A stretch of 25,447 bases of DNA from a virus. Positions 1-25,447 of the stretch are shown here, piece after piece; position 1 is the first letter of the stretch; the number at the start of each line of letters is the position of its first letter. The translations under genes and the position numbers were made by a program. The notes beneath the pieces were generated by a model. It made no database searches and was not told where the DNA came from. It saw only the letters and a program-made list of their open reading frames with translations. Location: positions 1 through 25,447 of the IMG/VR virus record IMGVR_UViG_3300024262_000217; one strand, given 5' to 3'.

Positions 1-1236
1 AAGGTAGTTGCAAATGCTCCCACTAATCGGCAGTTACGAGATATTTTTCTTGCGGAGATATCAAAATGGTTAAGACAGTCTATTGTATCAGAGGAGTTTA
101 AAGTATTAAAAGATTCTATTATTAGTAAAGAAGCACCTAAGGAATGGTGGATTCGTTTAATCTCTCCTTCTGTCCGGGCAACAAAGGAAGAGCAAGCTGA
201 AACGCTTGCAGGTCTTCATGGAGATCATTTACTTATCTTAATAGATGAAGCTTCAGGTGTACCTGATCCAACATTTATTCCTTTAGAAGGAGCTTTAACT
301 CAGCCAGATAATAAAACGATCTTAATTGGTAATATGACTAGAAATACGGGATATTTTTACGACTCACATTTTAATAGTGAGATTAAAAAAGATTGGTGTA
401 AATTCCACTGGGATAGTAGAAAGTCAACTATTGTAGATCCTTCAATGCCTTTATACTTTGCCAGAAAATATGGTATAGATTCTAATGTCTTTAAGATTCG
501 TGTTGAAGGTAATCCACCACTGCAGGATGAAAACACATTAATTCCTTTGTGGACTGCAGAACAATGTATTGGTCAGGAGTTTATAGTTGCTGAAGATGAA
601 CCATTGTTTCTTGGAGTGGATGTTGCAAGATATGGCGATGATAGTTCTATTATAATGCCAAGACAGGGTTTAAGAATTGATCCTTGGGAAACATTTAGAA
701 AACTTAATACTATTGATCTTGGTGGTTTTATTAATCAGACTTATCAAGAACTTGATGCTGATGGTTGCGCAATAGATGTTATTGGTGTTGGTGCTGGAGT
801 AGCTGATTGGCTAGAAAAACATAAGATGAAGAATCTTTATCAGGTTAATGTAGCACTTGCATCAAGTGATATTACTAAATATAACAGACTTCGGGATGAG
901 CTGTGGTGTAGAGTTAGAGATAATTGTTTACTTGGTAAGTACTCTTTTCCAGATGTGGTAGTAAATGGAGAGACTGAAACAATGGGACAACAACTTGCAA
1001 GTGAGCTTGCTACAGTTAGGTACACATTTAATGCTCACGGCGGATATGTTATTGAGTCTAAGAAAGATTTAAAAGCGCGTGGAATAGAGTCTCCGAATAT
1101 CGCAGATGCTCTTGGATTAACTGAATACTTTCATAACTCAGCTACAAGAGTATTTGGAAAGGAAAAGGAGGAAGAAATTCCCGCAAGAAATTATAGAAAT
1201 GAAGGTTATGGTTCAACGGCTTGGATGGGGTGCTAA
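1..1236 (+). CDS. Terminase large subunit (5' partial)
   Basis: Packaging motor ATPase and nuclease that pumps DNA through the portal and cuts the concatemer. The reading frame is open from base 1, so the start codon and the Walker A region lie upstream of the window; 411 residues are visible and the ATG at 334 is internal. A Walker B motif, LLILIDEAS, is at visible residues 77-85, followed by the coupling segment ILIGNMTRNTGYFYDSH. The C-terminal RNase H-fold nuclease shows three acidic positions in the expected contexts: D207 in FLGVDVARYGDD, D259 in CAIDVIGVG and D368 in SPNIADALGL. The gene ends in TAA directly against the ATG of the next gene, and the portal follows, the usual terminase-portal order. 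Nothing looks broken. Family assignment is strong; the packaging strategy (headful or cohesive end) cannot be read from this fragment. Confidence 0.95.
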   Translation, partial: KVVANAPTNRQLRDIFLAEISKWLRQSIVSEEFKVLKDSIISKEAPKEWWIRLISPSVRATKEEQAETLAGLHGDHLLILIDEASGVPDPTFIPLEGALTQPDNKTILIGNMTRNTGYFYDSHFNSEIKKDWCKFHWDSRKSTIVDPSMPLYFARKYGIDSNVFKIRVEGNPPLQDENTLIPLWTAEQCIGQEFIVAEDEPLFLGVDVARYGDDSSIIMPRQGLRIDPWETFRKLNTIDLGGFINQTYQELDADGCAIDVIGVGAGVADWLEKHKMKNLYQVNVALASSDITKYNRLRDELWCRVRDNCLLGKYSFPDVVVNGETETMGQQLASELATVRYTFNAHGGYVIESKKDLKARGIESPNIADALGLTEYFHNSATRVFGKEKEEEIPARNYRNEGYGSTAWMGC

Positions 1237-1434
1237 ATGGAAAACGTAGAACACTTTGATTATTATGAGGCAGAAAATCTACTTCAGCTTACTTTTAAGG
1301 GAGGAACAGTTAATACTTTTCATCCAGTTAATCCTGAAATCTTTGCTGAACTAATTCGTGCTGATATATTAATACGAGCAATACATAAACTTATTCGTAA
1401 TGGTATAACTGTTGGAGTAAATAAGGGAAACTAA
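1237..1434 (+). CDS. Small KTSC-like protein between terminase and portal
   Basis: A 65-residue protein of unknown role. Residues 8-43 fit the KTSC domain pattern seen in small phage and bacterial proteins: an aromatic-Asp start, a hydrophobic strand ending in FKGG, a second strand, then PVNPEIFAELIRAD in place of the usual VP-x-x-[VI]-[YF] helix. The last 20 residues do not fit the family. The ATG directly follows the terminase stop; the ribosome site must lie in the end of the terminase gene, where GGGGTG sits 5 bases upstream. The stop overlaps the portal start as TAATG, which suggests translational coupling. KTSC is my inference from pattern; no catalytic role is claimed. Confidence 0.7.
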   Translation: MENVEHFDYYEAENLLQLTFKGGTVNTFHPVNPEIFAELIRADILIRAIHKLIRNGITVGVNKGN

Positions 1435-4370
1435 TGGCAACTATTGCAGAGCAAAAAATTCTTACAGAAGCTAGAGATCGTCTTGCAAAAGCGATTGAAG
1501 ATGATGGTGAAAATCGTAAGCTTGCAAAAAATGATCTTGAGTTTATAGCTATTGAGGGTAAACAGTGGCCGGAAGCAATAAGAGCAGAACGTGAAGCTGA
1601 CGGTAGGCCTTGTATTACTATTAACAAAATGCCTGTATTTATTGATCAGGTTGTAGGTGATCAAAGAATGAATCGGCCTACAATCAAAGTAGTCCCGGTT
1701 GATTCTAAGGCCGATACTCAAACTGCTCATATTCTTGGTGGGTGGATTAAGCATGTACAACAGATTTCAAAGTCAGATATTGCTATTGATCATGGCTTTG
1801 AGCATGCAGTAGCAAGTGGGTATGGTGCTTGGAGAGTAGTAACAAAATATATTTCAGATGACTCTTTTGATCAAGAAGCTTATATTGAGAAAATTGATAA
1901 CGCACTTTCAGTGTATTGGGGTAAGCATATTGAGTATGATTGTTCTGATGCATTATATTGTTTTATTGTTTCTGATATGGATCGGGATGAGTATAAAGAT
2001 AAGTATAGACGTGAACCAATACCTTTTAGTTCGGCAAGTAGTCAGTATGTAGAAGGCTGGACAACTAAAGCTACTGTTAGAGTAGTAGAGTATTTTGTAA
2101 AAGAGCCAGTTAAAAAGATATTGTATCTTCTTGAAGATGGTTCAACTACAGATACCTTAAGAGAAGGCGATATAAAAGTTAACGAGAGAAAAGTTGAATC
2201 CTATAAGATTATGTGGTATCTTCTTTCTGGAAATGCTGTTCTTGAAAGTCGTGAGTGGGTAGGAAAGAAATATATTCCCGTTATTCCTATTTGGGGCAAA
2301 GAGTTTAATGTTGCTGGTAAAAGGGTACTTCGTAGTCTTATAAGAAATGCTAAAGATCCGCAACGAGCCTATAATTACTGGCAAGCACTTTCCTTAAATA
2401 CTTTATTACCAAGTCCAGATGGTTGGTTAAGTATGAAAGATGTTCAAGTAGGTTACCAGTTGTTTGATGAAAAAGGACAAATTTGTACTGTAACAGATAT
2501 TAGTCCTGTATTTGAGAATCGAGATTGTGTTGAAGTTTTATTTGATGATGGTTCAGTTATAATAGCAGATATAAAACATTTGTGGACAGTTGAGGAAAGA
2601 TGGAAAGAAAATGCGCCATATTATAACTGGGAGACAAAGACATTAACTACAGATCAATTAATTCCTAGAAAGCATTTTATATGGCTAACAGAACCTTTAC
2701 AACTTGCAGAAAAAGAACTTGCTATTTCTCCTTATGTTTTAGGTGTTTGGCTTGGAGATGGTAATACCGATGAACCAAGTATAACTCAGAGTCCTTCTGA
2801 TTGGGTAGAATTAGCTAAACATTTAGAATATTTTGGTTGTAAATTAGGAAAGCTAAAAAATAATGATACTTGTGTAAATGTCACTTTACTTGGGCTACGA
2901 AGTAAATTTACAAAACTTGGATTACTTGGAAATAAACATATTCCTTATGAATATGTACGAGGTTCTTTTCGACAACGACTTCAATTATTACAAGGTTTAA
3001 TGGATACTGACGGATCAGTTAATAACTTAAATGGCCAATGTAGTTTTACAACTACGCTTCTAGAATTAGCTAAAGGATTTGCAGAACTTCTTAGAACTTT
3101 GGGTATTAAAGCAAAGTATGTAGTAAGAAATAGAAATGGTGGAAATGTTTATGATAATGCTAAAATGCAATATCAATTCTACTTTACTACTCGATTACCT
3201 GTCTTTAGATTGTCTCGTAAATTAGTTGAGCTTGGAAAGGTTGTAGCACAAGAAAGACGAACTAAGCGTTATGGAATTAAAAGTATTACTCCAGTAAAGT
3301 CTGAGCCTGTTAAATGTGTTACAGTAGATAGTAAATCTTCCTTATATTTAGCAGGTATAGGAATGATTCCTACACATAATTCTAGTGATACGGAAACAGT
3401 TGCTTTGCAGCCAAAAGTTCCTTATGTACTTACTCCAATACAAATAGCAGGCCATGAAAAGCAGTGGAAGCAAGCACATAGAAAGAACTTCCCTTATCTT
3501 TTAGCAAACCCAGATAAAGATGCTCCAGGATGGCCGCATCGTGAAACACCTCCACAGGTTTCTTCAGCTATGGTTGAGAAACTTCGTGAAGCTGATCAGG
3601 AGATTCGAGATACAGTTGGTCTTCAAAAAGCTTCAATTGGTATGCAAAGTAACGAACGAAGTGGAGCAGCACTTAGAGAGCAAAAGAAGGAAGGTGATGT
3701 TGGGACTTTTGCTTTTGTTGATAATCTTTCTAGGTCACTTGAGCATACCGGTAGAATTCTTGTTGATATAGCTCCCGGTATTTTAGATACTGAACGTGTT
3801 GTTCGACTTGGTCTTGCTGATGGTGAGTTTGGTTTTGATACAGTTAATGCTGAAGGTCCAGATGGTATGATATTTAATGACTTGTCTATAGGAACTTACG
3901 ATGTCGTTGTTTCAGTCGGTCCTTCTTTTACTACACAACGAACTGAGGCACAACAATCTATCCAACAATTTATTCAGTATTATCCTGATGCTGCACCTAT
4001 CATTGGTGATTTGTATGCTAAGTATATGGATTGGCCAGGAGCCGAAGAAGTATCGCAGCGACTTGAGTTTCTTCTTCCGCCGGAGATTAAAGCTCAGATG
4101 GCTGCTAAGGCGGCTAAAAAAGCAGGTGAGCCAGCTATTCCTCCGGTTGAGTCACCTGCTCCGCCTGAGCCTAATCCTCAAGAACAACAGCAACTTGCAG
4201 CAGGACAAATAGAACTTGAGGAAGCAAAGATTAAACTTGAACAAGAAAAGATGAAACTGGAGGGATTGAGAATTAGAAACGAGCTTATGGTTAAAGAATC
4301 TAAGGAATCTTTAAAAGCTATGATGGAAGAAATCTTAAAGGAAGATGAAGGAGAAGGAAATGCCAGCTAA
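1434..4370 (+). CDS. Portal protein precursor, P22-like, containing an intein
   Basis: Dodecameric ring at the head vertex through which DNA enters and leaves. The precursor has 978 residues; removal of the intein (residues 318-649) leaves 646, in the range of P22-type portals. The N-terminal extein (1-317) carries features typical of the family, including GRPCITINKM, the run VGDQRMNRPTIKV and a final DPQRAYNYWQ. The C-terminal extein resumes with SSDTETVALQPKVPYV, so that the join reads NYWQ-SSDTETVAL, matching the uninterrupted NYWRSxxTETVAL-type segment I know from P22-like portals. The C terminus is Pro-rich, then a charged coiled coil (about residues 915-970). The start overlaps the previous stop (TAATG). 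Virions would need correct splicing because the insertion falls in a conserved core segment. Confidence 0.93.
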   Translation: MATIAEQKILTEARDRLAKAIEDDGENRKLAKNDLEFIAIEGKQWPEAIRAEREADGRPCITINKMPVFIDQVVGDQRMNRPTIKVVPVDSKADTQTAHILGGWIKHVQQISKSDIAIDHGFEHAVASGYGAWRVVTKYISDDSFDQEAYIEKIDNALSVYWGKHIEYDCSDALYCFIVSDMDRDEYKDKYRREPIPFSSASSQYVEGWTTKATVRVVEYFVKEPVKKILYLLEDGSTTDTLREGDIKVNERKVESYKIMWYLLSGNAVLESREWVGKKYIPVIPIWGKEFNVAGKRVLRSLIRNAKDPQRAYNYWQALSLNTLLPSPDGWLSMKDVQVGYQLFDEKGQICTVTDISPVFENRDCVEVLFDDGSVIIADIKHLWTVEERWKENAPYYNWETKTLTTDQLIPRKHFIWLTEPLQLAEKELAISPYVLGVWLGDGNTDEPSITQSPSDWVELAKHLEYFGCKLGKLKNNDTCVNVTLLGLRSKFTKLGLLGNKHIPYEYVRGSFRQRLQLLQGLMDTDGSVNNLNGQCSFTTTLLELAKGFAELLRTLGIKAKYVVRNRNGGNVYDNAKMQYQFYFTTRLPVFRLSRKLVELGKVVAQERRTKRYGIKSITPVKSEPVKCVTVDSKSSLYLAGIGMIPTHNSSDTETVALQPKVPYVLTPIQIAGHEKQWKQAHRKNFPYLLANPDKDAPGWPHRETPPQVSSAMVEKLREADQEIRDTVGLQKASIGMQSNERSGAALREQKKEGDVGTFAFVDNLSRSLEHTGRILVDIAPGILDTERVVRLGLADGEFGFDTVNAEGPDGMIFNDLSIGTYDVVVSVGPSFTTQRTEAQQSIQQFIQYYPDAAPIIGDLYAKYMDWPGAEEVSQRLEFLLPPEIKAQMAAKAAKKAGEPAIPPVESPAPPEPNPQEQQQLAAGQIELEEAKIKLEQEKMKLEGLRIRNELMVKESKESLKAMMEEILKEDEGEGNAS
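2385..3380 (+). mobile_element. Class 3-type intein with LAGLIDADG homing endonuclease, in the portal gene
   Basis: In-frame protein-splicing element of 332 residues (portal residues 318-649). Block A begins ALSLNT and continues LPSPDGW, with Ala instead of Cys or Ser at position 1. Block B ends IADIKHLW. Block F is VKCVTVDSKSSLYLAG and block G is IPTHN followed by Ser+1. Class 3 inteins lack a nucleophile at position 1 and use a Trp-Cys-Thr triplet; all three are here: W384 (HLW), C628 (block F) and T647 (before the penultimate His). The homing endonuclease between blocks B and F has both LAGLIDADG helices, LGVWLGDG (D442) and LQGLMDTDG (D526), with their acidic residues, so it looks active. 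A hand count of 2821-2880 gives 22% GC against 48% for 1561-1620 in the N-extein, consistent with a mobile origin. Confidence 0.92.
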
Positions 4371-4746
4371 ATCGAAAGCACAACAGCGCTTAATGGCTAT
4401 TGCCAAGCATAGTCCTGAGAAAGTATACGCAGAAAATAAGGGTGTGCTTGGAATGAGTAAGAAATCTCTTAGTGAATTTGCTTCGACTCCAAGAAAGGAG
4501 TTACCAGAAAAGACTCCAAAGTATGAAGTGTTAAATAAACTGCAGTCTGCTGCAGGCAAAGTTAAAAAGAAAGTTAAAAAGACACAATATTTAGTTAAAA
4601 ATAAACTTAGTGAAATTATGGAGGGCAAAGGCGCAGCTTTTCTTGCTCGAATGAAAGCAGATAAAAATAGCCTTTACTGGAGGAGTGCAGCTGAAAAACT
4701 GAAAGAGCGTAAAACTTTAAATAAAAAGTATTTAAAGAAAAATTAG
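4360..4746 (+). CDS. Small basic protein, DUF3008-like N terminus
   Basis: A 128-residue basic protein of unknown function. I place the start at 4360 (MPAKSKAQQRL) because the run AAGGAGAAGG at 4348-4357 serves as its ribosome site; the in-frame ATG at 4345 would lie upstream of that site. Residues 1-52 (MPAKSKAQQRL, then KKSLSEFASTPRKELPEKT) fit the DUF3008 pattern of small proteins often found next to phage portal and scaffold genes. The rest is a Lys-rich region with KVKKKVKK and a predicted helical end. It overlaps the end of the portal gene by 11 bases and is followed after 10 bases by the staple-like gene, so it belongs to the capsid operon. A virion or assembly role is an inference from position. 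Confidence 0.8.
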   Translation: MPAKSKAQQRLMAIAKHSPEKVYAENKGVLGMSKKSLSEFASTPRKELPEKTPKYEVLNKLQSAAGKVKKKVKKTQYLVKNKLSEIMEGKGAAFLARMKADKNSLYWRSAAEKLKERKTLNKKYLKKN

Positions 4747-4756
4747 GAGGAAACTA

Positions 4757-5119
4757 ATGGATTTAATAGATATGAAACTACCTAAGAAAACGAAGAAGGA
4801 ATTAAAGGAATACGATCAGCCTATAATGGAAGGTGAACGAGATCGCTGGCCATACGGACTTCAGCTTCGTTTTGAGACTGAGCAAGTAAAATTAATTCCA
4901 TCACTTAAAGATTACAATGTTGGTGACAGAGTTGTTATTTCAGCTGAAGCAAAAGTTACTGAAGTAAGAATGGTCGAAAGACAAAGTACTGGTGGAGAGG
5001 CAAAACCTCAGTATACAGTAGAGTTACAAATTGAGCAGATTGCTTGTGAACCAAAAGTAAAGAAACCTGTGGAGAAAATGAATCCGCAAGAGTACCGTAA
5101 AATGAGAGAAAAGAAGTAA
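4757..5119 (+). CDS. Capsid staple/stabilising-like protein
   Basis: A 120-residue protein with an N terminus (MDLIDMKLPK) and a beta-rich core (WPYGLQLRFETEQ through KPQYTVELQIEQI) like small phage proteins encoded between portal and scaffold that I know as capsid staple proteins. Those bind the coat lattice and stabilise it; this is a family-based inference. The C terminus, EKMNPQEYRKMREKK, closely resembles the C terminus of the scaffold encoded next (KMSPKEYRAWRERNKE), suggesting both use the same coat-binding tail. A strong AGGAGG at 4745-4750 stands 6 bases before the ATG. The gene is followed by a 62-base spacer with two small inverted repeats. Confidence 0.75.
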   Translation: MDLIDMKLPKKTKKELKEYDQPIMEGERDRWPYGLQLRFETEQVKLIPSLKDYNVGDRVVISAEAKVTEVRMVERQSTGGEAKPQYTVELQIEQIACEPKVKKPVEKMNPQEYRKMREKK

Positions 5120-5140
5120 CTAATCAGTAAAATTAACTCA

Positions 5141-5157
5141 CAGTGAGAAATTCACTG
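5141..5157 (+). other. Small stem-loop CAGTGA/TCACTG
   Basis: A perfect 6-bp inverted repeat, CAGTGA at 5141-5146 and TCACTG at 5152-5157, with a 5-base loop, in the spacer before the scaffold gene. No T-run follows, so it is not a classical intrinsic terminator. It could be an RNA processing or stability element. Short stems of this size also arise by chance. Confidence 0.4.
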
Positions 5158-5160
5158 CAT

Positions 5161-5177
5161 CAAGCTTAGGAGGCTTG
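5161..5177 (+). promoter_or_regulatory. Hairpin presenting the scaffold ribosome binding site in its loop
   Basis: CAAGC at 5161-5165 pairs with GCTTG at 5173-5177; the 7-base loop TTAGGAG carries most of the AGGAGG Shine-Dalgarno (5168-5173) for the scaffold ATG at 5182. The geometry could tune scaffold translation relative to coat. The stem is only 5 bp, so this is a candidate, not a proven switch. Confidence 0.4.
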
Positions 5178-5181
5178 CGCT

Positions 5182-6210
5182 ATGTTAAAATCACTAGAGG
5201 AAGTAAAGAAAGTAGAATTAAATGTCAGTGGTGTAGTAAATGGAGTTGATAATGCAAACTTAATGTCAGTTGATTCTACTGAACCATTTCAGACTGGCGC
5301 AGATGAACTTGAATCTGAAGAAGCTGCAACCGAAGAACAAAATAAAGCAGCCGAGAAAGAAGCGGCTGAGAAGAAAGCAGCCGAGGAAAAACCTGAGGCT
5401 AAGAAAGAAAGTAGTGAAGAAGAATCAGGTGAAAAATTAACTGCGGAAGAAATCGAAGCAAAAGCTGCAGAAGCGCCTGCAAAAGATTCAGCTGCAAAGC
5501 GTATTGGTAGACTTACTAAGAAGTGGCGTACAGTAGAAAGAGATCGAGATTTTGAGCGAACGAAGCGTCTTGAAGCAGAAGCTGAGTTGAAGAAGCTTAG
5601 ACTTACAATTCCAGCAACAGATAAACCAGACCCTGAAGATTTTGAGGATACACCGTCATATCTTGAAGCACTGACAGACTGGAAGGTTGAGCAAAAGTTA
5701 AATACTCGATTAGCAGAAGCTACTGCCGAAACAGAAGAAACAAGTGATAGGCAGGCTGTGGAAGATATTGAAGAGGAACTAGAGACAATTGCTGATCGCG
5801 GACGTGATAAGTATGATGATTACGATGCTCTTGTCTTTGATAAGGATTTAGTTCTAACTCATGATATGATCGAAACGATACTTCAATCAGATATTTCTGA
5901 GGAAATTTTATACTATCTTGGTTCAAACCCAGATATATCTGCGTCACTTGGTGAGATGTCAGCGCTTAAAGCTGCAAGAGAAATTGGAAAATTAGAGGTG
6001 GAGATTGCTGCGGGAATTCCTAAACTGAATACCTCAAGTGAAGGAGGCGAAAAGTCTCCTGACGCAAAACCAGTTAAGACTCCGAAGAAGAAAACAACTA
6101 AAGCGCCAGAGCCTATAATTCCTGTAAAGACTACAGGTGTAACAGATAAAGACCCATCAAAGATGTCTCCAAAGGAATACAGGGCTTGGCGAGAACGTAA
6201 TAAGGAGTAA
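5182..6210 (+). CDS. Scaffolding protein
   Basis: Assembly chaperone that nucleates the procapsid with coat protein and leaves before or during packaging. The 342-residue protein has the expected character: strongly acidic, Ala/Glu/Lys-rich from about residue 40 to 105 with heptad-like AAEKEAAEKKAAEE runs, a further charged helical segment (about 105-200), and a basic C terminus, KMSPKEYRAWRERNKE, of the type that binds coat in scaffold proteins. It lies immediately before the coat gene, as in P22. No protease motif is evident, so it is not a fused scaffold-protease. Its own AGGAGG is in the loop of a small hairpin. The last codons contain the AAGGAG that serves the coat gene. Confidence 0.88.
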   Translation: MLKSLEEVKKVELNVSGVVNGVDNANLMSVDSTEPFQTGADELESEEAATEEQNKAAEKEAAEKKAAEEKPEAKKESSEEESGEKLTAEEIEAKAAEAPAKDSAAKRIGRLTKKWRTVERDRDFERTKRLEAEAELKKLRLTIPATDKPDPEDFEDTPSYLEALTDWKVEQKLNTRLAEATAETEETSDRQAVEDIEEELETIADRGRDKYDDYDALVFDKDLVLTHDMIETILQSDISEEILYYLGSNPDISASLGEMSALKAAREIGKLEVEIAAGIPKLNTSSEGGEKSPDAKPVKTPKKKTTKAPEPIIPVKTTGVTDKDPSKMSPKEYRAWRERNKE

Positions 6211-6215
6211 GAATA

Positions 6216-7415
6216 ATGGCTTCAGATAATACACTTTTAACCCCTACGATCATTGCAAAGGAAGCGTTGATGCAACTTACCAACAACCTTGCAATGGCTA
6301 GGCATGTACATACGGCTTACAAAAATGAGTTTGTTAAGGTTGGGCAAACTATTACTGTTCGTAAGCCTAATAAATTTAGAGCGAAAAAGGCACAAACAAG
6401 AGATAACACGGATCTGTCTGAGCCGAGTACCTCTATCACGATGTCGACTCAAGCGCATGTATCCTGGGCTTTTAGTTCTGTTGATTTGACAACTACTATT
6501 GAAGATTATAGTAAGAGATATATTTCTCCTGCTGCTAATGCGCTTGCGAATGTAGTAGATGCTGATCTTTGTGGACTGTATGATGATATTTACAACTCTG
6601 CAGGTACGCCAGGAACTACTCCAGCTACGTTTGCTGTTCTTGGAGACGCTCAGCGGATTCTTGATGATGAAGCTGTTCCAAGTGATACAAGAGTTGGAAT
6701 TTTAAATCCCGCTGCTAACTGGTCTTTAGCTGACGGTCTGAAAGGTACTTTTGCACAGCAGGTTGCGAAAGATATTATGACTAAGGGTTTCCTTGGTCGG
6801 ATTGCTAACCTGGATCTGTTCTCTGATCAGAATGTTGTTCGTCATACGACAGGAGTGTTTACAGCTAGTGCTACTCCTGTGATGAATGCTACTATAAGTG
6901 AGACAGCATCTGAAATTGTTACCAAGGGTTGGGATAGTACTAACAATACTGTTACAGTAGGTGATGTGTTTACTATTGCTGCTGTCTATGCAGTTAATCC
7001 GATGTCTGGTGCTAGTACTGGTGAGCTTCGTAGATTTACTGTTACGGAAGCTGCTACAAGCAATACTACGATGACGATTAAAATCTCACCTAGTATTGTT
7101 TATGGTGCAACTGATCCTTACACTACTGTTAGTGCTTATCCTTTGGAAGATGCAGCATTGACGTTTATTGGAACAGAGTCTACAGCGTATCCTCAGAATT
7201 TGGTTTTTCATCCTAATGCTTTTGCTCTGGTCACAGTTCCTATTGAAATGCCTGCAAATGTTTGGGGTGCAAGAGAAACTGATCCTGATGCTGGCCTTAG
7301 TATTCGTGTTGTTAAGCAGTATGATATTGATGCTGATGAGGAAATCATCAGGCTCGATATTTTGTATGGGGTGAAAACACTTTATCCCGAATTAGCAGTT
7401 CGTTTATGGGGTTAA
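6216..7415 (+). CDS. Major capsid protein, P22 gp5-like
   Basis: Shell-forming coat protein of 399 residues; P22 gp5 is 430. Recognisable family segments in order: LTPTIIAKEALMQLTNNL near the N terminus, GQTITVRKP (about 43-51), the TLL-type DLTTTIEDYSKRYISPA region (about 91-110), RVGILNPAANWSLADGLKG (about 159-177), GDVFTIAAVYAVNP (about 249-262), NLVFHPNAFALVTVPIEMP (about 328-346), and the end RVVKQYDIDADEE...RLDILYGVKTLYPELAVRLWG. This is the HK97-fold coat family with the P22-type insertion. The ATG is 5 bases after the scaffold stop, with AAGGAG at 6202-6207 inside the scaffold gene. High expression is likely from the strong site and position. Confidence 0.93.
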   Translation: MASDNTLLTPTIIAKEALMQLTNNLAMARHVHTAYKNEFVKVGQTITVRKPNKFRAKKAQTRDNTDLSEPSTSITMSTQAHVSWAFSSVDLTTTIEDYSKRYISPAANALANVVDADLCGLYDDIYNSAGTPGTTPATFAVLGDAQRILDDEAVPSDTRVGILNPAANWSLADGLKGTFAQQVAKDIMTKGFLGRIANLDLFSDQNVVRHTTGVFTASATPVMNATISETASEIVTKGWDSTNNTVTVGDVFTIAAVYAVNPMSGASTGELRRFTVTEAATSNTTMTIKISPSIVYGATDPYTTVSAYPLEDAALTFIGTESTAYPQNLVFHPNAFALVTVPIEMPANVWGARETDPDAGLSIRVVKQYDIDADEEIIRLDILYGVKTLYPELAVRLWG

Positions 7416-17712: not shown

Positions 17713-18903
17713 ATGCAAAAGAATGTACTATATAACAGGAAGAAAAAAGATCCAATGGAGTTTTCTACTCCTAAAAATGTGTTATACCAAGAGCCTTTTA
17801 AAATTAAGGAAAGCTTAGGTTTAACTGAAGAAGCAACACCAACGGCTACGTCGACTCAGCCAGCAAGTATTCCTGAGACTCCGCCTAATAATTTGCTTTC
17901 GCTTCCTAAAGATAGCTTTAGTCAATACTGGAAACAACCAGTTGGAAAGACTCAAGTACCTCTTGATCAGTTCGTTCGCTTGGCTGGAATGGCAGCACAT
18001 GCCCTTGACCCAGAAGGTTTTGGTGGTAGGCTAGGAAAAGACTTATCTACAATGGGTGCTGAAGCTTACGGAGAAAGAGCAAAGAGAGAATATGAGTCCC
18101 CGAACCAATTGTTACGACAACAACTACTTACAGCACAAATTGAGAAGATTAAAGCAGAACAACCTGGAAAGTGGGAGGCGTGGAATAGATCACCAGAGGC
18201 TCAGGCTTTAGATCCACTTGAAAGAGTAAGGAAATTTACTGAAGCAACAACAACTGCAAAAGATCCTACATTATCAGCATATAAAACTTTTTATAGTTCA
18301 CAAAAAGCTGCAGGTAAATCAGATGCTGAGATAGATACGGAATGGACTAAAAGACAAAAAGATCTCGCAAAGGAAAGGAAAACAGAAGTAAGTACAGAGC
18401 AAGAAAGGTTATACTCATCATATAAAAAACAATTTAAAACTGCTAAAGGAGAAGGAGTTGTTAAGAGTCCTACTGGTAAAATGATGACACCGTGGGAATT
18501 TAAGAAACATATGGAACCCTTTGGTAAAATGTATATGACTGATAAAGGACCAGTCTTTGCAACTAAAGCTGGTGGGTTAATGGATGCACAAGGAAATATC
18601 GTTCCTACTGATATAGCATCTACAATAACAGGGATTCCAAAACCTAAAACTAGTATGGAAAAGAGACTGGAAAAGATACTTGCAGAAAAAGAAGCTAAAA
18701 AGAAGTCGGGTGGAGTTATTGGAGCAATAAGTAAACTTTGGTCACAACCTAAAACAGAATTAGAAGCACCTGAGCTTTCTACTGAAGGTCTTGAACAACC
18801 TCAACTTGTTCCTCCTGAAGGGTTTGTCGATTCAGGTAAAACATCTGGCGGAAAGAAAGTTTACTTAAATGCAGATGGGAGTAAAGCATGGATACAGCAA
18901 TAG
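17713..18903 (+). CDS. Internal virion/ejection-type protein
   Basis: 396 residues, hydrophilic, Lys/Glu/Pro-rich, with no membrane segment. The N terminus repeats KNVLY (residues 3-7 and 21-25). A Pro/Thr-rich linker (40-65) is followed by helical sequence (80-240) and a basic coiled segment EKRLEKILAEKEAKKK near 315-330. The end, PPEGFVDSGKTSGGKKVYLNADGSKAW, is a motif I associate with C termini of phage ejection or virion-internal proteins. A good AAGGAG precedes the ATG. The last 16 bases overlap the start of the next, very large gene. Specific function unknown; a packaged internal protein is the best inference. Confidence 0.65.
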   Translation: MQKNVLYNRKKKDPMEFSTPKNVLYQEPFKIKESLGLTEEATPTATSTQPASIPETPPNNLLSLPKDSFSQYWKQPVGKTQVPLDQFVRLAGMAAHALDPEGFGGRLGKDLSTMGAEAYGERAKREYESPNQLLRQQLLTAQIEKIKAEQPGKWEAWNRSPEAQALDPLERVRKFTEATTTAKDPTLSAYKTFYSSQKAAGKSDAEIDTEWTKRQKDLAKERKTEVSTEQERLYSSYKKQFKTAKGEGVVKSPTGKMMTPWEFKKHMEPFGKMYMTDKGPVFATKAGGLMDAQGNIVPTDIASTITGIPKPKTSMEKRLEKILAEKEAKKKSGGVIGAISKLWSQPKTELEAPELSTEGLEQPQLVPPEGFVDSGKTSGGKKVYLNADGSKAWIQQ

Positions 18904-21900
18904 TTGATACTAACTCTATAAAGTTTGATAGTCCAATAGCTGCTGCTCCAATGATGGATTCTTCAGTAGTTGATACTAATACTATAAAATTTGACGAAGC
19001 TCCGAGTATTGTTTCTACAGCTGATGTCATATTTGATGATGCAGTTTCTCCTACGCCGGAAGAAGTAAGTACTCCAACTATACCTGAAACAATTCCTACA
19101 GAAGTTGAAGCTCCTAAACCTATAACAAATGCTAAAGACTTTGTTCGTAATATAATGTATGAACGAAAGCCTGGTACTATAATTAATCAACTTGGACCAT
19201 CTACTGAACCTACACCAGAAGCTTCTTTTATAAAACCTGATACAGCTAAACAAATATTCGAAGCTCCTAAAACTTTGGGAGAAGTAGGACTTATGCTGGC
19301 AACAGCTGGACCTGCATGGATTGCTGGAAGTCTTGGTAAAATAGGAATAACTGGATATGGTGAATTAACTGGAAAGGATACAACTGAACAGGCAGAGAAA
19401 TTTCAAGAAGAAGTAGGAAAAGCTGTATGGCAACCAGAAACAGAAGTGGGAAAAAAAGCTACTGAACTTATTGGTAAGGGATTTGAGTTTATTACTACTC
19501 CAATTAAAGAAGCTGCTGAGCTAGTTGGTGAATCTTGGAATAGTAAAACAGTAGAAGCCGTATCTCAATTTGTTGTGGAATTAGCTTTGTTTCATTATGG
19601 AGGTGAGAGCATAGGAAAAGCTAAAGTTAAAATTCCTGAATGGTATAATAAGATGTCAGGTAGGGAACAAACACTTATTAATAATATGGTTAAAAAGGTT
19701 ACATCTGCAAAGAAAGCAGTATCGCTTAAAGGTGCAGAAGGTATTCTTGAAAAGCCTAAAGGAGTACCTGAGGGATATACTGTAAAGCCTGAAGTAAAGA
19801 TTGCAGAAAAAGAAAAGATTACTGTACCGGAAGAAGTAACTGAAAGAATAACTACTGAAGAAATAGCTAGAGTAGAAGAATTAGTTGAAAAAGAACATGC
19901 TTTATGGACTGAAGAAGATACAGCTTTTATTAATGAGATGGAGAGTAAACTGGAAAAGTCAACAGAGAAGGAAAAGAAACCTGCACCTGTTTGGGAGAAG
20001 ATGCCTGAAGAAGAATTAAAGAAACAGGCTGAGTATGGAGTTGAAGGTGCGAAGGAAGAGTTGGCTGTAAGAGAAGTAAAGGGGAAGGAAGTAGTAAAAG
20101 CTAAAGAAGAACCTAAACCTATTCCAGAACTCAAAAATTCAGAAGAAGCAATAGCATTTGGAGAGAAGGCTACACCTGAACAAGTTACTGAACTTGAGAG
20201 ATTGTATGAAGAGTCTCAAATTAAATCTAAAGCATTTAGAGATACTGGTAAACTTCAAGAAGCACTTGATGAAGGAGTACGAGGACAATTTTTTAGGGAG
20301 GCTGTAGATAAAGCTAAAGGAGTTTTACCAGAAAGGTCAAAAATTGACCTGGCAGCTGAGAAGGAAGTTAAGGTAAAGAAGTCTGAACTACCAGAACTCC
20401 TTAAAGATAAAGTAGTTGATGAAAAAGAAAACGCAAAAGTAATAAGTAAAACAAAAGATACAATAAAGGAGAAGCGTGCGTCTAGTGAGATTGCTGCAGA
20501 TGCTCCTATACGTTTTACTAATGTTGTTGAAGTTAATCATATGCTTAAAACAGGAGAGAATTTTCTTGGTAAAGATAGCGGAGGGAATTTAGGAATCTCT
20601 GCTTCAACAATACCAGAAGAGTTTGGAATTGTAGCATATGGAAGTAAAGTTAAAACTCCTGTTGCTATTATTTATCCTAAGAAAGCTATTGAAGGCACAG
20701 GAACGCATCCTAATGAAGTTAAGATTAATCCAGCAGTAAAACTTGATGAACTAAAGTTTATTGTTGGAGATCATGGTAAGTTACTTACACTTGAAGAACT
20801 CCGAGCAGCAGCTCCGAAAGTTAGTAAGAAGGTAAGAGAGGCAGAGAAAGCTGGGCGTGCTACTGAAGCTGAAAAGTATATTGCCGAGCTAGAGAAAACT
20901 AATATTGCTACAAAAACACTGATAAAAAAGGAAGTGGGAAAAGGTAATACCGTACTTTATTCAGGTCTTGACCCAACTCAAATTCCTGGAACATTACGTG
21001 GACTTAAAAACTCTGCAAAAGATTTATGGGAAGCAGCAGAGACAAAATCTGCAACATTAGGAAAGGTAAAAAGAACCGTAAGAGTAACAGTTAAAGAACT
21101 TAAAGAACTTGTATTCGATCCTGCAAGTGTTGTAACTAAAGATCCTGTAGCAAAAGAGAGTTTTAAACTTTTAATTAATGCTGAGGAAGGAAAGAATGCT
21201 TTCTTGCACAGAAATTTAAAGCTTTATGAAGATGCTTCACAAGGAATTAAAAAGGGATCTGAGTCATCTATTAATATTGGTAAGGTTTTAGATGGCCAAA
21301 GAGATATAAATACACTAACACAAAAAGAGCGTAAAGCTTATGACTTCTTTAAAGATAATTACGATTTTCTTATTAACGAATTTGCTCGAAAAGCTTGTGG
21401 TAGTGAAGAGGCGTATAAAAAGATTGTAAGTGAGGTTGGAAAAGAGCATCCAAAGAAAACTAAAATTGCTGACTTAAGTAAGGAAAGGGCAGAAGAATAT
21501 AAGACTCTATCAGATGAAGCAAAGAAGATTCGTGGAAGTAAAAAAGTATCAGAACTAAAAGGCGAAGAACGTATTGCTTATAAGAGTAAACAACAAGAGA
21601 TGCGTGACTTTCTAAATAAAGATTATATAGAAAGTTTAAGCCCCGGCGAGCGTGAAGCACATTTAATTCTTAGCAGACGTATTGATCAGTACTTACCACA
21701 TCTCTTTGATCCTAAAGAATTACTTACAATCTTCAAAACAAATCTTGAAGTTGCACAGGTTAAGTTAGCAAAGGCAACAAAGAAGGGGAGTATTACTAAG
21801 TATAAAAATAAAGTAAACAGTCTTACATCAGCTATAACTAAACTTGAAGGTGGGGAGTTTGTTGCGTTTAGACAATTACCTAAAGAAATCTTCTTTGCCT

Positions 21901-23372
21901 TTTTTACTAAAAGAAAGGGAGCAAAAGGATATTCGTTTGATGCTTTGAAAGCGTATGAAACTTATTTACACGGATTAGCTAGAAAAATGTTTGATGAGCC
22001 TGCAGTTAAACAAATAGCTGCTGATTTGTATCCTGATATAGATGTTGGACTTAAACCTTACGTTGGTAATTTAGTTAGACATTATATGGGATATGATAAG
22101 CATCCAATGGATAAGATTTCTAATGCAATTACTACAGCTCAATGGATTAGAACACTTGGTTTTAATCCAAGATCAGCATTAGTAAATTTATCTCAAAGAG
22201 TTAATACTGTTGCTTTTGTTGGAGAAAGATATGCGCTTCAAGCAGAAAAGATGATGTTATTTGATAGAAAAAATACAAATGCTATATTTGATAAAACTGG
22301 TATTACACGAGAAGTTCCGTCAGTTTTAACTGAAGGTCCTCCAAGCGTTGGTATGAAAGCTGTTAATGATGTTGCAAGATATATGTTTAATCAAATGGAA
22401 CTTGGGAATAGAAAACACGCTTATCTTTCAGGTTACTTAAAAGGATTAGATACTGGAAAAGGAAAAGGTTTATCTGGTGAAGCACTTACAGACTTTGCAA
22501 CAAAAGAGGGAATAAAGGCAGTACATGAAACTCAGTTTAGATATGGTAAACTTGGTATGGCTAAAATGTATTGGAATCCTTACGCAAGAATAGCATTACA
22601 GTTTACATCATACCCTTTAAAACAAGCAAGATTTTTATACCGACTGTTTAAGAAAGATAAGGTAGGATTTTTAAAGTACATGGCGTACGCTGAAGGAATT
22701 AATTATACTTTACAGGAATTGCTTGATATGGATATGTCAAACGCTTTGGGGTTTGGTATTACTTGGGGAGAAGGATTGAATACTGTTATAGCTTTAGCAG
22801 AGGGCGATACTCGAGGTGCACTTAGACATGCAAAGCAAACTATAAATATTGGTGGAGGATTGCTTCCGTCAGGTCCTGGACCAACAGTATCAAGTGCACT
22901 TACAATAGCAGAAAAGGCTAAGGAAGGAAAGGGAGTTGAACAGCTTGGTAAGGAGCTTACTCCTATAATGGCTACAAGATTAGCTCAAGCCTATAAAGCT
23001 GTTAGAGATGGATACGAAGGGAAGTATCCAATTTATGATTCTCAAGGACATATTAGATATTATGCTACTGGTGGACAAGTTCTTCAGAGAACAGTCGGGC
23101 CGAGACCCGCAGAAGAATACGAAGCTTCTAAAGCGTATGAAGCTAAAAAGAATCTCAGATTAGAGAAGACTGAAGTTCTTAAAGATATGACTGATGCTTT
23201 CTTATCGAATGACGATGAAACGCTTATAAAACTTTATGAAAGATTTGGTATTATGCCAAGTGATAAGCAAATAATGGCAGAGCAAGAAAAGCGTAATTTG
23301 TCAGAAGAAGAACGAAGACGTTATGGAGCTGAAGAGCAGTATCAGTTGTTAAGAGAAGGAACAATTTATTAA
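18888..23372 (+). CDS. Large polyvalent ejection/internal virion protein (1494 aa)
   Basis: A very large multi-domain protein of the kind injected with phage DNA. The N terminus has three short repeats ending in (I/V)(K/I)FD (VDTNSIKFD, VDTNTIKFD, TADVIFDD), then a Pro/Thr linker, a hydrophobic stretch LGEVGLMLATAGPAWIAGSLGKIG (about 130-153), a long Glu/Lys-rich helical region (about 300-530), a compact beta-rich domain (about 540-640), and a long helical C-terminal half. The latter includes DQYLPHLFDPKEL, AYETYLHGLARKMFDEPAVKQ, AQWIRTLGFNPRSALVNLSQ and YWNPYARIALQFTSYPLKQARF, typical of the polyvalent-protein-associated C-terminal domains (LPD type) of phage ejection proteins. No lysozyme or polymerase motif was found. 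The start has GGGAG just upstream inside the previous gene. Confidence 0.78.
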   Translation: MDTAIVDTNSIKFDSPIAAAPMMDSSVVDTNTIKFDEAPSIVSTADVIFDDAVSPTPEEVSTPTIPETIPTEVEAPKPITNAKDFVRNIMYERKPGTIINQLGPSTEPTPEASFIKPDTAKQIFEAPKTLGEVGLMLATAGPAWIAGSLGKIGITGYGELTGKDTTEQAEKFQEEVGKAVWQPETEVGKKATELIGKGFEFITTPIKEAAELVGESWNSKTVEAVSQFVVELALFHYGGESIGKAKVKIPEWYNKMSGREQTLINNMVKKVTSAKKAVSLKGAEGILEKPKGVPEGYTVKPEVKIAEKEKITVPEEVTERITTEEIARVEELVEKEHALWTEEDTAFINEMESKLEKSTEKEKKPAPVWEKMPEEELKKQAEYGVEGAKEELAVREVKGKEVVKAKEEPKPIPELKNSEEAIAFGEKATPEQVTELERLYEESQIKSKAFRDTGKLQEALDEGVRGQFFREAVDKAKGVLPERSKIDLAAEKEVKVKKSELPELLKDKVVDEKENAKVISKTKDTIKEKRASSEIAADAPIRFTNVVEVNHMLKTGENFLGKDSGGNLGISASTIPEEFGIVAYGSKVKTPVAIIYPKKAIEGTGTHPNEVKINPAVKLDELKFIVGDHGKLLTLEELRAAAPKVSKKVREAEKAGRATEAEKYIAELEKTNIATKTLIKKEVGKGNTVLYSGLDPTQIPGTLRGLKNSAKDLWEAAETKSATLGKVKRTVRVTVKELKELVFDPASVVTKDPVAKESFKLLINAEEGKNAFLHRNLKLYEDASQGIKKGSESSINIGKVLDGQRDINTLTQKERKAYDFFKDNYDFLINEFARKACGSEEAYKKIVSEVGKEHPKKTKIADLSKERAEEYKTLSDEAKKIRGSKKVSELKGEERIAYKSKQQEMRDFLNKDYIESLSPGEREAHLILSRRIDQYLPHLFDPKELLTIFKTNLEVAQVKLAKATKKGSITKYKNKVNSLTSAITKLEGGEFVAFRQLPKEIFFAFFTKRKGAKGYSFDALKAYETYLHGLARKMFDEPAVKQIAADLYPDIDVGLKPYVGNLVRHYMGYDKHPMDKISNAITTAQWIRTLGFNPRSALVNLSQRVNTVAFVGERYALQAEKMMLFDRKNTNAIFDKTGITREVPSVLTEGPPSVGMKAVNDVARYMFNQMELGNRKHAYLSGYLKGLDTGKGKGLSGEALTDFATKEGIKAVHETQFRYGKLGMAKMYWNPYARIALQFTSYPLKQARFLYRLFKKDKVGFLKYMAYAEGINYTLQELLDMDMSNALGFGITWGEGLNTVIALAEGDTRGALRHAKQTINIGGGLLPSGPGPTVSSALTIAEKAKEGKGVEQLGKELTPIMATRLAQAYKAVRDGYEGKYPIYDSQGHIRYYATGGQVLQRTVGPRPAEEYEASKAYEAKKNLRLEKTEVLKDMTDAFLSNDDETLIKLYERFGIMPSDKQIMAEQEKRNLSEEERRRYGAEEQYQLLREGTIY
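20330..20350 (+). repeat. AGAAAGGTCA element, copy C (inside the large ejection gene)
   Basis: The 19 bases of copy B recur exactly at 20330-20348 and extend here to a perfect palindrome, AGGTCAA-AAA-TTGACCT (20334-20350). It lies within the coding frame, encoding part of PERSKIDLAAE, in the charged linker before the beta-rich domain, so it may mark a junction between protein modules. Confidence 0.6.
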
Positions 23373-23431: not shown

Positions 23432-25447
23432 ATGTCGTATGATACTGATACAGTACGAGCAATGTGGTATGAAACAGTTACCAGTGGAATGAGTGGTGTA
23501 ATTGTACCTCCTCCTAATAGCGAAATTGTAACTGAATTATGGAGAGATTCTAGCAGTGTTTTAGTTTCTACCTTTGTTAATGACGTGCCTAACTTTAGAA
23601 CTCCTCTTACCTCCGGCGGGACGTTGGTAGGAGCTACTTTAGATGCTGATGGTAATTATGTTTTATTGAATGAGCCAGCGTCTTATCCGATTGCTCTTCT
23701 TTATATTTATGAGATTGCGCATCAGGATTTTGATAAAGAGTACGCCTTATTTGGAAGATTGTATCAGGATAGCATTGGTTTGCATGAGTTGTATAAAACT
23801 GAAGCTCATTCTTTTACATTAGGCCCTAAGTATATAGTACCAGTTGAAGATAACCACGCAGTACCTAAGAAGTATGTAGATGATAAGATAGTTTCAGCCG
23901 ATCATGTTGAGGTTAAGGAATTTGGTACTGCAACTTATGATGATCTGCAGGACTATCTTAACAACACTATGAGTTCTGGATACGTCTTAGGAGGACTTCT
24001 TACTGCTGCTTCTCCTGCCGATGGTTCTGTGGATGTAAGTGCTGTTAAGGGACATATAAGGGCCTCTGATTCAGAGATAGGAGAGATTAAAGCCTATGAC
24101 TTGGCAGGTGCAAATGTCGCTCTGACAGACCAGAAAGCGAATTACATTTATGTGGAGTATTACCAGGCAACTACTCCTTTTGTGAGATTACAGGTCACTA
24201 CTGATAGATCAACTATAGGATTGAATACTCAGCATACTCTTGGCAGAGTTTACAGAGATGGGACTGCCACTCATATAATTCAGTCAGGTATTCAACTTCC
24301 AAATCTTCTACGTAAAGAACATGAACGAACATTAGCGGTACGGGGTTTTGAGAGGGCTTCTGGTGGGAATATAACTATCGCTGGAGTGGCTGGTTCAAGA
24401 GAAATTCAATCTGATGCTGGGGTGTTTTATTTAGGTAGAAATAAGATTACAATTTCTGCTAAGACTTCTGCGGTAGATAAATTCACAACTTGGTATTATG
24501 ATGGAGATGCTGGCCCTGCTGCGTGGGTAAGTACGGCAGACCAAACTCAGATTGATAAACTTCAGTATAATGATGTAGCAACTGGACTTGCTAATATCGG
24601 AGTTGCTCGATACGGAGTTCATTGGGTTTTTATAGACTACGCTTCTAATCTTCATGTTCTTTATGGACAGGATAGTTATAAAATAGCAGCGGCAGAGGGT
24701 GCCGAAGTTCCCTCTTCAATACCAGAGTTTTTAAGTTGTTTTGCGAAACTTGCTTGTAAGATAACGGTGGCTCAAAATGTAGATGTTTTTTATGACATTG
24801 CTGGTGCATATGCTACTTTGTTTCCTGTCAGTTCCCCTGAAGTTCATAATGATTTGACGGGACTGAACGATGGAGATGATTACGAACATATTACACAGAC
24901 ACAAAAAGATAAGCTTGATGGAATAGAAGCCTTGGCAGACGTTACCTCAACCCATGAAACATCTCATGCTGATGTCTTAGTTGATGCGGATATAGACGTA
25001 ACGGTTGCTGCCGCACTTGGTGAAGATGATAACTATGTGACAGATACAGAAAAAGCAGCGTTACATGCAGCAGGTTCAGACACCTCCCTCGGCGCACAGT
25101 CTGAAAACCTTGATATGAACTCACATCAGATTGAAGCTCTTTCCGTACCAGATGCCGCAGGTGAGGCTATCCGGCAGACGGCGAAGATAACGGAAGCGGC
25201 TCTTGAAACTGTGATTGATGGTGGTGGGACGACCTTGGCAGGGCTTACCGACACAGCAATAACCGGGCCAGTTGATCTTGATCTTTTGCAGTATGACAAT
25301 GCTTCAAACAAGTGGGTTGACAGAACCCTTGTAGAGGCTGGGGTTGCAAAGTCAGGAGCAAATGCTGACATTACCTCCATGACCGGTCTTGATGATGATG
25401 GAATACCGGTTGCAAAAGTGTCGGGAGCTATTGAAACGGCTGCATTA
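23432..25447 (+). CDS. Tail fibre protein (3' partial)
   Basis: An open frame of 672 codons from ATG 23432 to the last base of the window, without a stop; it is incomplete at the 3' end. AAGGAAA (23420-23426) is the ribosome site. The N-terminal 120 residues (MSYDTDTVRAMWYETV onward) are probably the virion-attachment part. Middle segments are beta-rich. From about residue 470 there are classic tail-fibre repeats: HNDLTGLNDGDDYEHITQTQKDKLDGIEAL and DNYVTDTEKAALHAAGSDT, then a Gly/Asp/Thr-rich shaft. The receptor-binding tip, and any chaperone or peptidase end domain, would lie beyond the window. Base composition rises sharply toward the end (62% GC in 25141-25200 by hand count), suggesting a recently exchanged distal part. 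Confidence 0.85.
   Translation, partial: MSYDTDTVRAMWYETVTSGMSGVIVPPPNSEIVTELWRDSSSVLVSTFVNDVPNFRTPLTSGGTLVGATLDADGNYVLLNEPASYPIALLYIYEIAHQDFDKEYALFGRLYQDSIGLHELYKTEAHSFTLGPKYIVPVEDNHAVPKKYVDDKIVSADHVEVKEFGTATYDDLQDYLNNTMSSGYVLGGLLTAASPADGSVDVSAVKGHIRASDSEIGEIKAYDLAGANVALTDQKANYIYVEYYQATTPFVRLQVTTDRSTIGLNTQHTLGRVYRDGTATHIIQSGIQLPNLLRKEHERTLAVRGFERASGGNITIAGVAGSREIQSDAGVFYLGRNKITISAKTSAVDKFTTWYYDGDAGPAAWVSTADQTQIDKLQYNDVATGLANIGVARYGVHWVFIDYASNLHVLYGQDSYKIAAAEGAEVPSSIPEFLSCFAKLACKITVAQNVDVFYDIAGAYATLFPVSSPEVHNDLTGLNDGDDYEHITQTQKDKLDGIEALADVTSTHETSHADVLVDADIDVTVAAALGEDDNYVTDTEKAALHAAGSDTSLGAQSENLDMNSHQIEALSVPDAAGEAIRQTAKITEAALETVIDGGGTTLAGLTDTAITGPVDLDLLQYDNASNKWVDRTLVEAGVAKSGANADITSMTGLDDDGIPVAKVSGAIETAAL

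Follow-up and report, generated by a model that had tools for sequence, protein, structure and literature searches.

Inteins are protein segments that remove themselves, and the most familiar class 3 examples reside in DnaB helicases, terminases and nucleases. The portal protein forms the ring that admits DNA to the virus head. In the class 3 intein MchDnaB1 the catalytic triad and WCT residues are H65, W67, C124 and T143 (PMC7664689), and PMC5050341 and PMC7891396 give WCT as the class 3 signature. Many class 3 inteins carry LAGLIDADG domains, 82.5% of the 1701 that have been collected having endonuclease motifs (PMC7891396), and six portal inteins are reported for the cluster C1 mycobacteriophages in the available part of PMC5050341.

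We analyzed a window of 25,447 bases, a tailed-phage genome fragment from IMG/VR (the metagenomic record of an uncultivated virus) in which the gene order is terminase, portal, scaffold and major head protein (Table 1). The portal ORF encodes 978 residues of the P22 type (PF16510, E 4e-162, 541 bits), and its PF16510 match falls into two stretches that flank an insert with LAGLIDADG matches. Like MchDnaB1 (6rix/6riy) and MsmDnaB1 (6bs8), this insert has a HINT fold (here predicted), the WCT residues, a block B His, Ala1 and a THN end; it differs from these two mini-inteins of bacterial DnaB by its LAGLIDADG domain, its virion-protein host and Ser+1. The class 3-type inteins of phage terminases, DnaB and exonucleases resemble it in being full-length, phage-borne and related over all 332 residues, but those of the Mycobacterium phage Gaia and Nebkiss terminases are about 38% identical and occupy a different site in a different host gene. 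A portal is also the host protein of the cluster C1 inteins (PORT, POG1190; Kelley et al. 2016, PMC5050341), which come from another phage group; the available part of that source gives neither class nor site. Alice gp98, picked by length as a cluster C1 portal for comparison, was set aside because it has no portal assignment in PHROGs. The phiCbK terminase intein (PMC3556154) is also found in a packaging protein, with Pro at position 1 and a His-Asn end followed by Ser, but its host is a terminase and not a portal. PI-SceI (the VMA intein) has the same HINT and LAGLIDADG architecture, whereas it is a eukaryotic class 1 intein at an unrelated insertion site. In all, class 3 inteins and phage portal inteins are already known and the insertion site is new: the class 3 range gains a lineage confined to portals and, in the stem helix of the P22 type of portal, a conserved site. 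We found no description of the P22-portal stem site, of the lineage or of its range of first residues in the open-access literature, and earlier reports are possible.

The first-pass annotation of this DNA had proposed an in-frame insertion of 332 residues at codons 318-649 (2385-3380), the removal of which would restore a conserved portal segment. Coordinates, frame and residues all agree with this proposal, and the portal without the insert is a predicted product of 646 residues. The restored segment was found in nature, since the uninterrupted portal of contig L015 (N-extein 78% identical) reads NYWQSSDTETVALQPKVPY, exactly the predicted spliced product, and runs through the site as QRMYNYWQSSDTETVALQPKVPY. 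The portals of L022 and L023 are likewise uninterrupted at the site, up to VAIQ, and many other close portals found by N-extein similarity are empty at NYW(7)VAL. This NYW-to-VAL spacing of seven residues in intact relatives is also the length of the inferred joins of the intein-bearing portals. The insert is thereby confirmed as an intein in a P22-type portal and chance is ruled out. A search for related loci with the C-extein alone as query returned no relatives. Four portals of 780-826 residues (L024-L027) were considered as intein carriers and rejected because their sequences show C-terminal extensions and no intein; such extensions, of roughly 100-150 residues, occur in some intact portals (L024-L027) and were not seen in the window portal.

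Table 1 Positions of the genes of the head region and of the features of the intein-bearing portal gene in the window.
Feature	Position	Strand	Evidence
Terminase	1-1236		phrog_2
Portal	1434-4370		PF16510
Scaffold	5182-6210		phrog_8865
Major head protein	6216-7415		phrog_283
N-extein, portal residues 1-317, ends NYWQ	1434..2384	+	PF16510 P22_portal stretch 14-325; alignment with 16 portals
Class 3 intein, 332 aa, Ala1 to Asn332	2385..3380	+	phmmer to 6rix/6riy/6bs8; absent in close relatives; AlphaFold pLDDT 91.2, HINT + LAGLIDADG fold
N-terminal splicing region, blocks A + B	2385..2684 (outer bound approximate)	+	matched to MchDnaB1 residues 1-70; both alignments
Block B His65, general base of class 3 triad	2577..2579	+	invariant in both alignments; = MchDnaB1 His65 (PMC7664689)
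Block B Trp67, W of WCT, portal W384	2583..2585	+	invariant in both alignments; = MchDnaB1 Trp67
LAGLIDADG homing endonuclease domain	2718..3254 (approximate bounds)	+	PF14528, PF05204; Foldseek PI-SceI, I-DmoI; dN/dS 0.18 vs L002
Asp125, first LAGLIDADG acidic residue, PYVLGVWLGDG, portal D442	2757..2759	+	invariant in 15 portal inteins
Asp209, second LAGLIDADG acidic residue, LQGLMDTDG, portal D526	3009..3011	+	invariant in 15 portal inteins
C-terminal splicing region, blocks F + G	3267..3380	+	aligned to MchDnaB1 111-145
Block F Cys311, C of WCT, predicted branch-point nucleophile, portal C628	3315..3317	+	invariant in both alignments; = MchDnaB1 Cys124
Block G Thr330-His331-Asn332: T of WCT + cyclising Asn (predicted)	3372..3380	+	invariant in both alignments; Thr330 = MchDnaB1 Thr143
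C-extein, portal residues 650-978, begins Ser+1	3381..4367	+	second PF16510 stretch; uninterrupted homologues

A phmmer search with the insert retrieved the class 3 inteins MchDnaB1 (6rix, E 1.4e-19) and MsmDnaB1 (6bs8, E 3.2e-18), aligned from residue 1 through THN. The first residue is Ala, so that no Cys or Ser stands there, as class 3 requires, and the WCT set that had been read as W384, C628 and T647 corresponds to intein W67, C311 and T330, which align with W67, C124 and T143 of MchDnaB1. These residues occupy block B:12, block F:4 and block G:5, the class 3 positions, and together with H65 they are invariant in two alignments. The intein ends in THN before Ser+1, and portal relatives have THN|S or THN|T. 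Both LAGLIDADG motifs are intact (PYVLGVWLGDG and LQGLMDTDG), with PF14528 (LAGLIDADG_3) and PF05204 (Hom_end) above cut-off inside the insert, and the two Asp residues named by the first-pass annotation, D442 and D526 (intein D125 and D209), are invariant in 15 aligned portal inteins. An AlphaFold model built on an alignment of 15 natural relatives (mean pLDDT 91) has a HINT fold and a two-motif LAGLIDADG endonuclease; with this predicted model Foldseek gave PI-SceI as top match over the whole architecture and the class 3 DnaB inteins 6rix and 6bs8 at TM 0.84-0.93 of their length. Sequence, block positions and predicted fold all support the assignment to class 3 that had been made from the letters alone. 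Between the window and L002, the contig with an intein 70% identical at the same site, dN/dS was 0.17 in the splicing regions and 0.18 in the endonuclease region, rough values because dS is near saturation in this comparison, and these support purifying selection on both.

The element is very likely a class 3 intein of full length that splices in cis, carries a LAGLIDADG homing endonuclease and interrupts the stem helix of a P22-type portal; we infer its splicing and endonuclease activity in this copy. Cys311, with His65 and Thr330, would attack the Gln317-Ala318 bond and form an internal branched thioester; Ser+1 would then accept the N-extein, cyclisation of Asn332 would free the intein and an O-N acyl shift would yield the 646-residue portal. 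The freed intein would in turn cleave the empty site of any co-infecting phage whose portal gene lacks the intein, and the cut would allow the element to spread by gene conversion. Alignment of a profile built from intact portals with the P22 portal 3lj5 (E 1.8e-81) places the site at P22 Met334|Ser335. Residues 320-343 of the P22 portal are part of the stem (PMC12005531), and by this alignment the insertion lies within the stem helix. At such a position 12 unspliced inserts of ~38 kDa would crowd the channel region and would be expected to keep a normal ring from forming. Portal assembly therefore probably needs splicing, a sound inference that the first-pass annotation had put forward.

Inteins at this site, give or take one codon, were identified in 17 other metagenomic contigs, of which 15 are distinct. 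Besides L002, scans based on alignment and on portal relatives gave L035, L036, L037, L038, L041, L042, L043, L044, L089, L119, L121, L122, L123, L133 and L134, of which those scanned with Pfam are P22 portals; a genome scan added L163, a contig binned as Chthoniobacterales that has a portal by PHROGs. With the near-copies L041/L043 and L119/L122 counted once, and including the window, there are 16 distinct portal inteins. They are 40-70% identical within the family. In a tree of 83 class 3-type inteins they group as a single clade (one change; recovered in 88% of bootstrap trees), the branch having moderate support (89 bootstrap / 56 SH-aLRT), and the sampled IMG/VR inteins of the terminase type lie outside it. 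The best GenBank matches of the intein, at 38% identity or less, belong to terminases, helicases and nucleases and lie below the range of the portal family, and none of 50,697 GenBank phage records spans portal and intein together at 80% cover or more. Sequence comparison thus supports the window intein as one member of a portal-specific lineage, a point absent from the first-pass annotation.

Residue 1 is Ala, Pro, Leu, Arg, His, Asp or Cys across the 16 distinct portal inteins, which offer a natural series for judging how far class 3 splicing can do without a particular first residue. This residue is Arg in L121 (4474-5496) and L123 (3852-4874), Asp in L089 (3998-5020) and His in L163 (4998-6026), all inteins that otherwise look intact. 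Cys1 stands beside the full WCT set in L041 (3998-5014) and L043 (101-1117), a mixed class 1/class 3 signature; Tori and Perler are said to have described comparable class 3 inteins with Ser1 in 2011. In L036, L037 and L089 the insertion lies one residue upstream, right after NYW, NFW or NYN, with the inferred spliced length unchanged.

On the portal N-extein tree the intein is patchy, with at least nine gains or losses, and the three portals nearest to that of the window (about 80-81% identical, grouped with it at 96% support) are empty. The share of intein carriers among distant portals is biased, many having been found via the intein itself. In L121 and L123 the inteins are 88% identical at the nucleotide level (dS 0.5) and the exteins 74-77% (dS 2.1-2.5), flank identity being already 77% right at the junctions; inteins so much closer than their exteins point to homing, that is, to transfer of the intein alone. 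Against L002, no recent homing of the window intein was seen, since it is no closer than the exteins. Patchy presence and the L121/L123 pair support a homing history for the lineage, and the claim of a homing intein is more tentative for the copy in the window. The empty-site DNA of relatives is 57-93% identical to the window flanks over 30 bp and is a plausible target of the putative endonuclease.

An intein that lacks Cys or Ser at residue 1 may also belong to class 2, where the +1 residue attacks the N-terminal junction directly. Ala1 fits this reading, but the block F Cys, the block B Trp and the block G Thr are invariant in 15 aligned portal inteins while residue 1 varies there (A, P, L, C, D, R), and the combination is the signature of class 3 (PMC7891396, PMC5050341), which class 2 lacks; a class 1 or class 2 intein is highly improbable. 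Somewhat less far-fetched and still very unlikely is a class 3 intein that has decayed or splices poorly, the genome having an intact portal copy at another locus. The window is a genome fragment, a second portal gene may lie outside it, and a degenerate class 3-type intein is on record in Arthrobacter FB24 (Arth_1007; available part of PMC3196547); here, however, the catalytic residues are all intact, the frame is open, the extein is conserved, both LAGLIDADG Asp are kept and dN/dS is about 0.18 in both domains. The least credible explanation, with a negligible chance of being right, is an assembly chimera of a portal gene and an unrelated intein, which an uncultivated-virus record might harbor; it is refuted by the same arrangement in 17 other contigs, with the site within one codon and the sequences divergent.

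A class 3 intein that splices could also do so conditionally, as a checkpoint on portal assembly, and not merely constitutively. The intein interrupts a helix that the ring requires, and the M. smegmatis DnaB inteins, including a class 3 one, are described as differing in their response to stress (available part of PMC6195587). In contrast, the patchy presence fits a selfish element, and class 3 inteins with endonucleases have been suggested to splice constitutively (PMC7891396). We regard conditional splicing as very unlikely, and have as little confidence that the portal-specific lineage is tuned to assembly, with splicing gating portal maturation, as opposed to a purely selfish constitutive element.

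No Pfam or PHROG match was obtained for the 1494-residue ORF at 18888-23372 of the window or for the next, open-ended ORF at 23432-25447 (672 residues), and an NCBIfam search gave nothing useful. The nearest inteins outside the portal clade are those of L039 and L040, in a large ORF (L039, 2438-5425) without a Pfam portal match, and in L164 (3471-6404) the junction is similar and the N-extein terminase-like (phrog_2); these inteins possibly record a jump between packaging genes. Because the intein splits the portal match, such portals may be mis-annotated or missed. The terminase profiles phrog_36964, phrog_15 and phrog_19299 match the L163 portal ORF (3891-7202), and a terminase identity of this ORF was rejected because these matches are confined to the intein region; the profiles therefore contain intein sequence and can mislabel portals as terminases.
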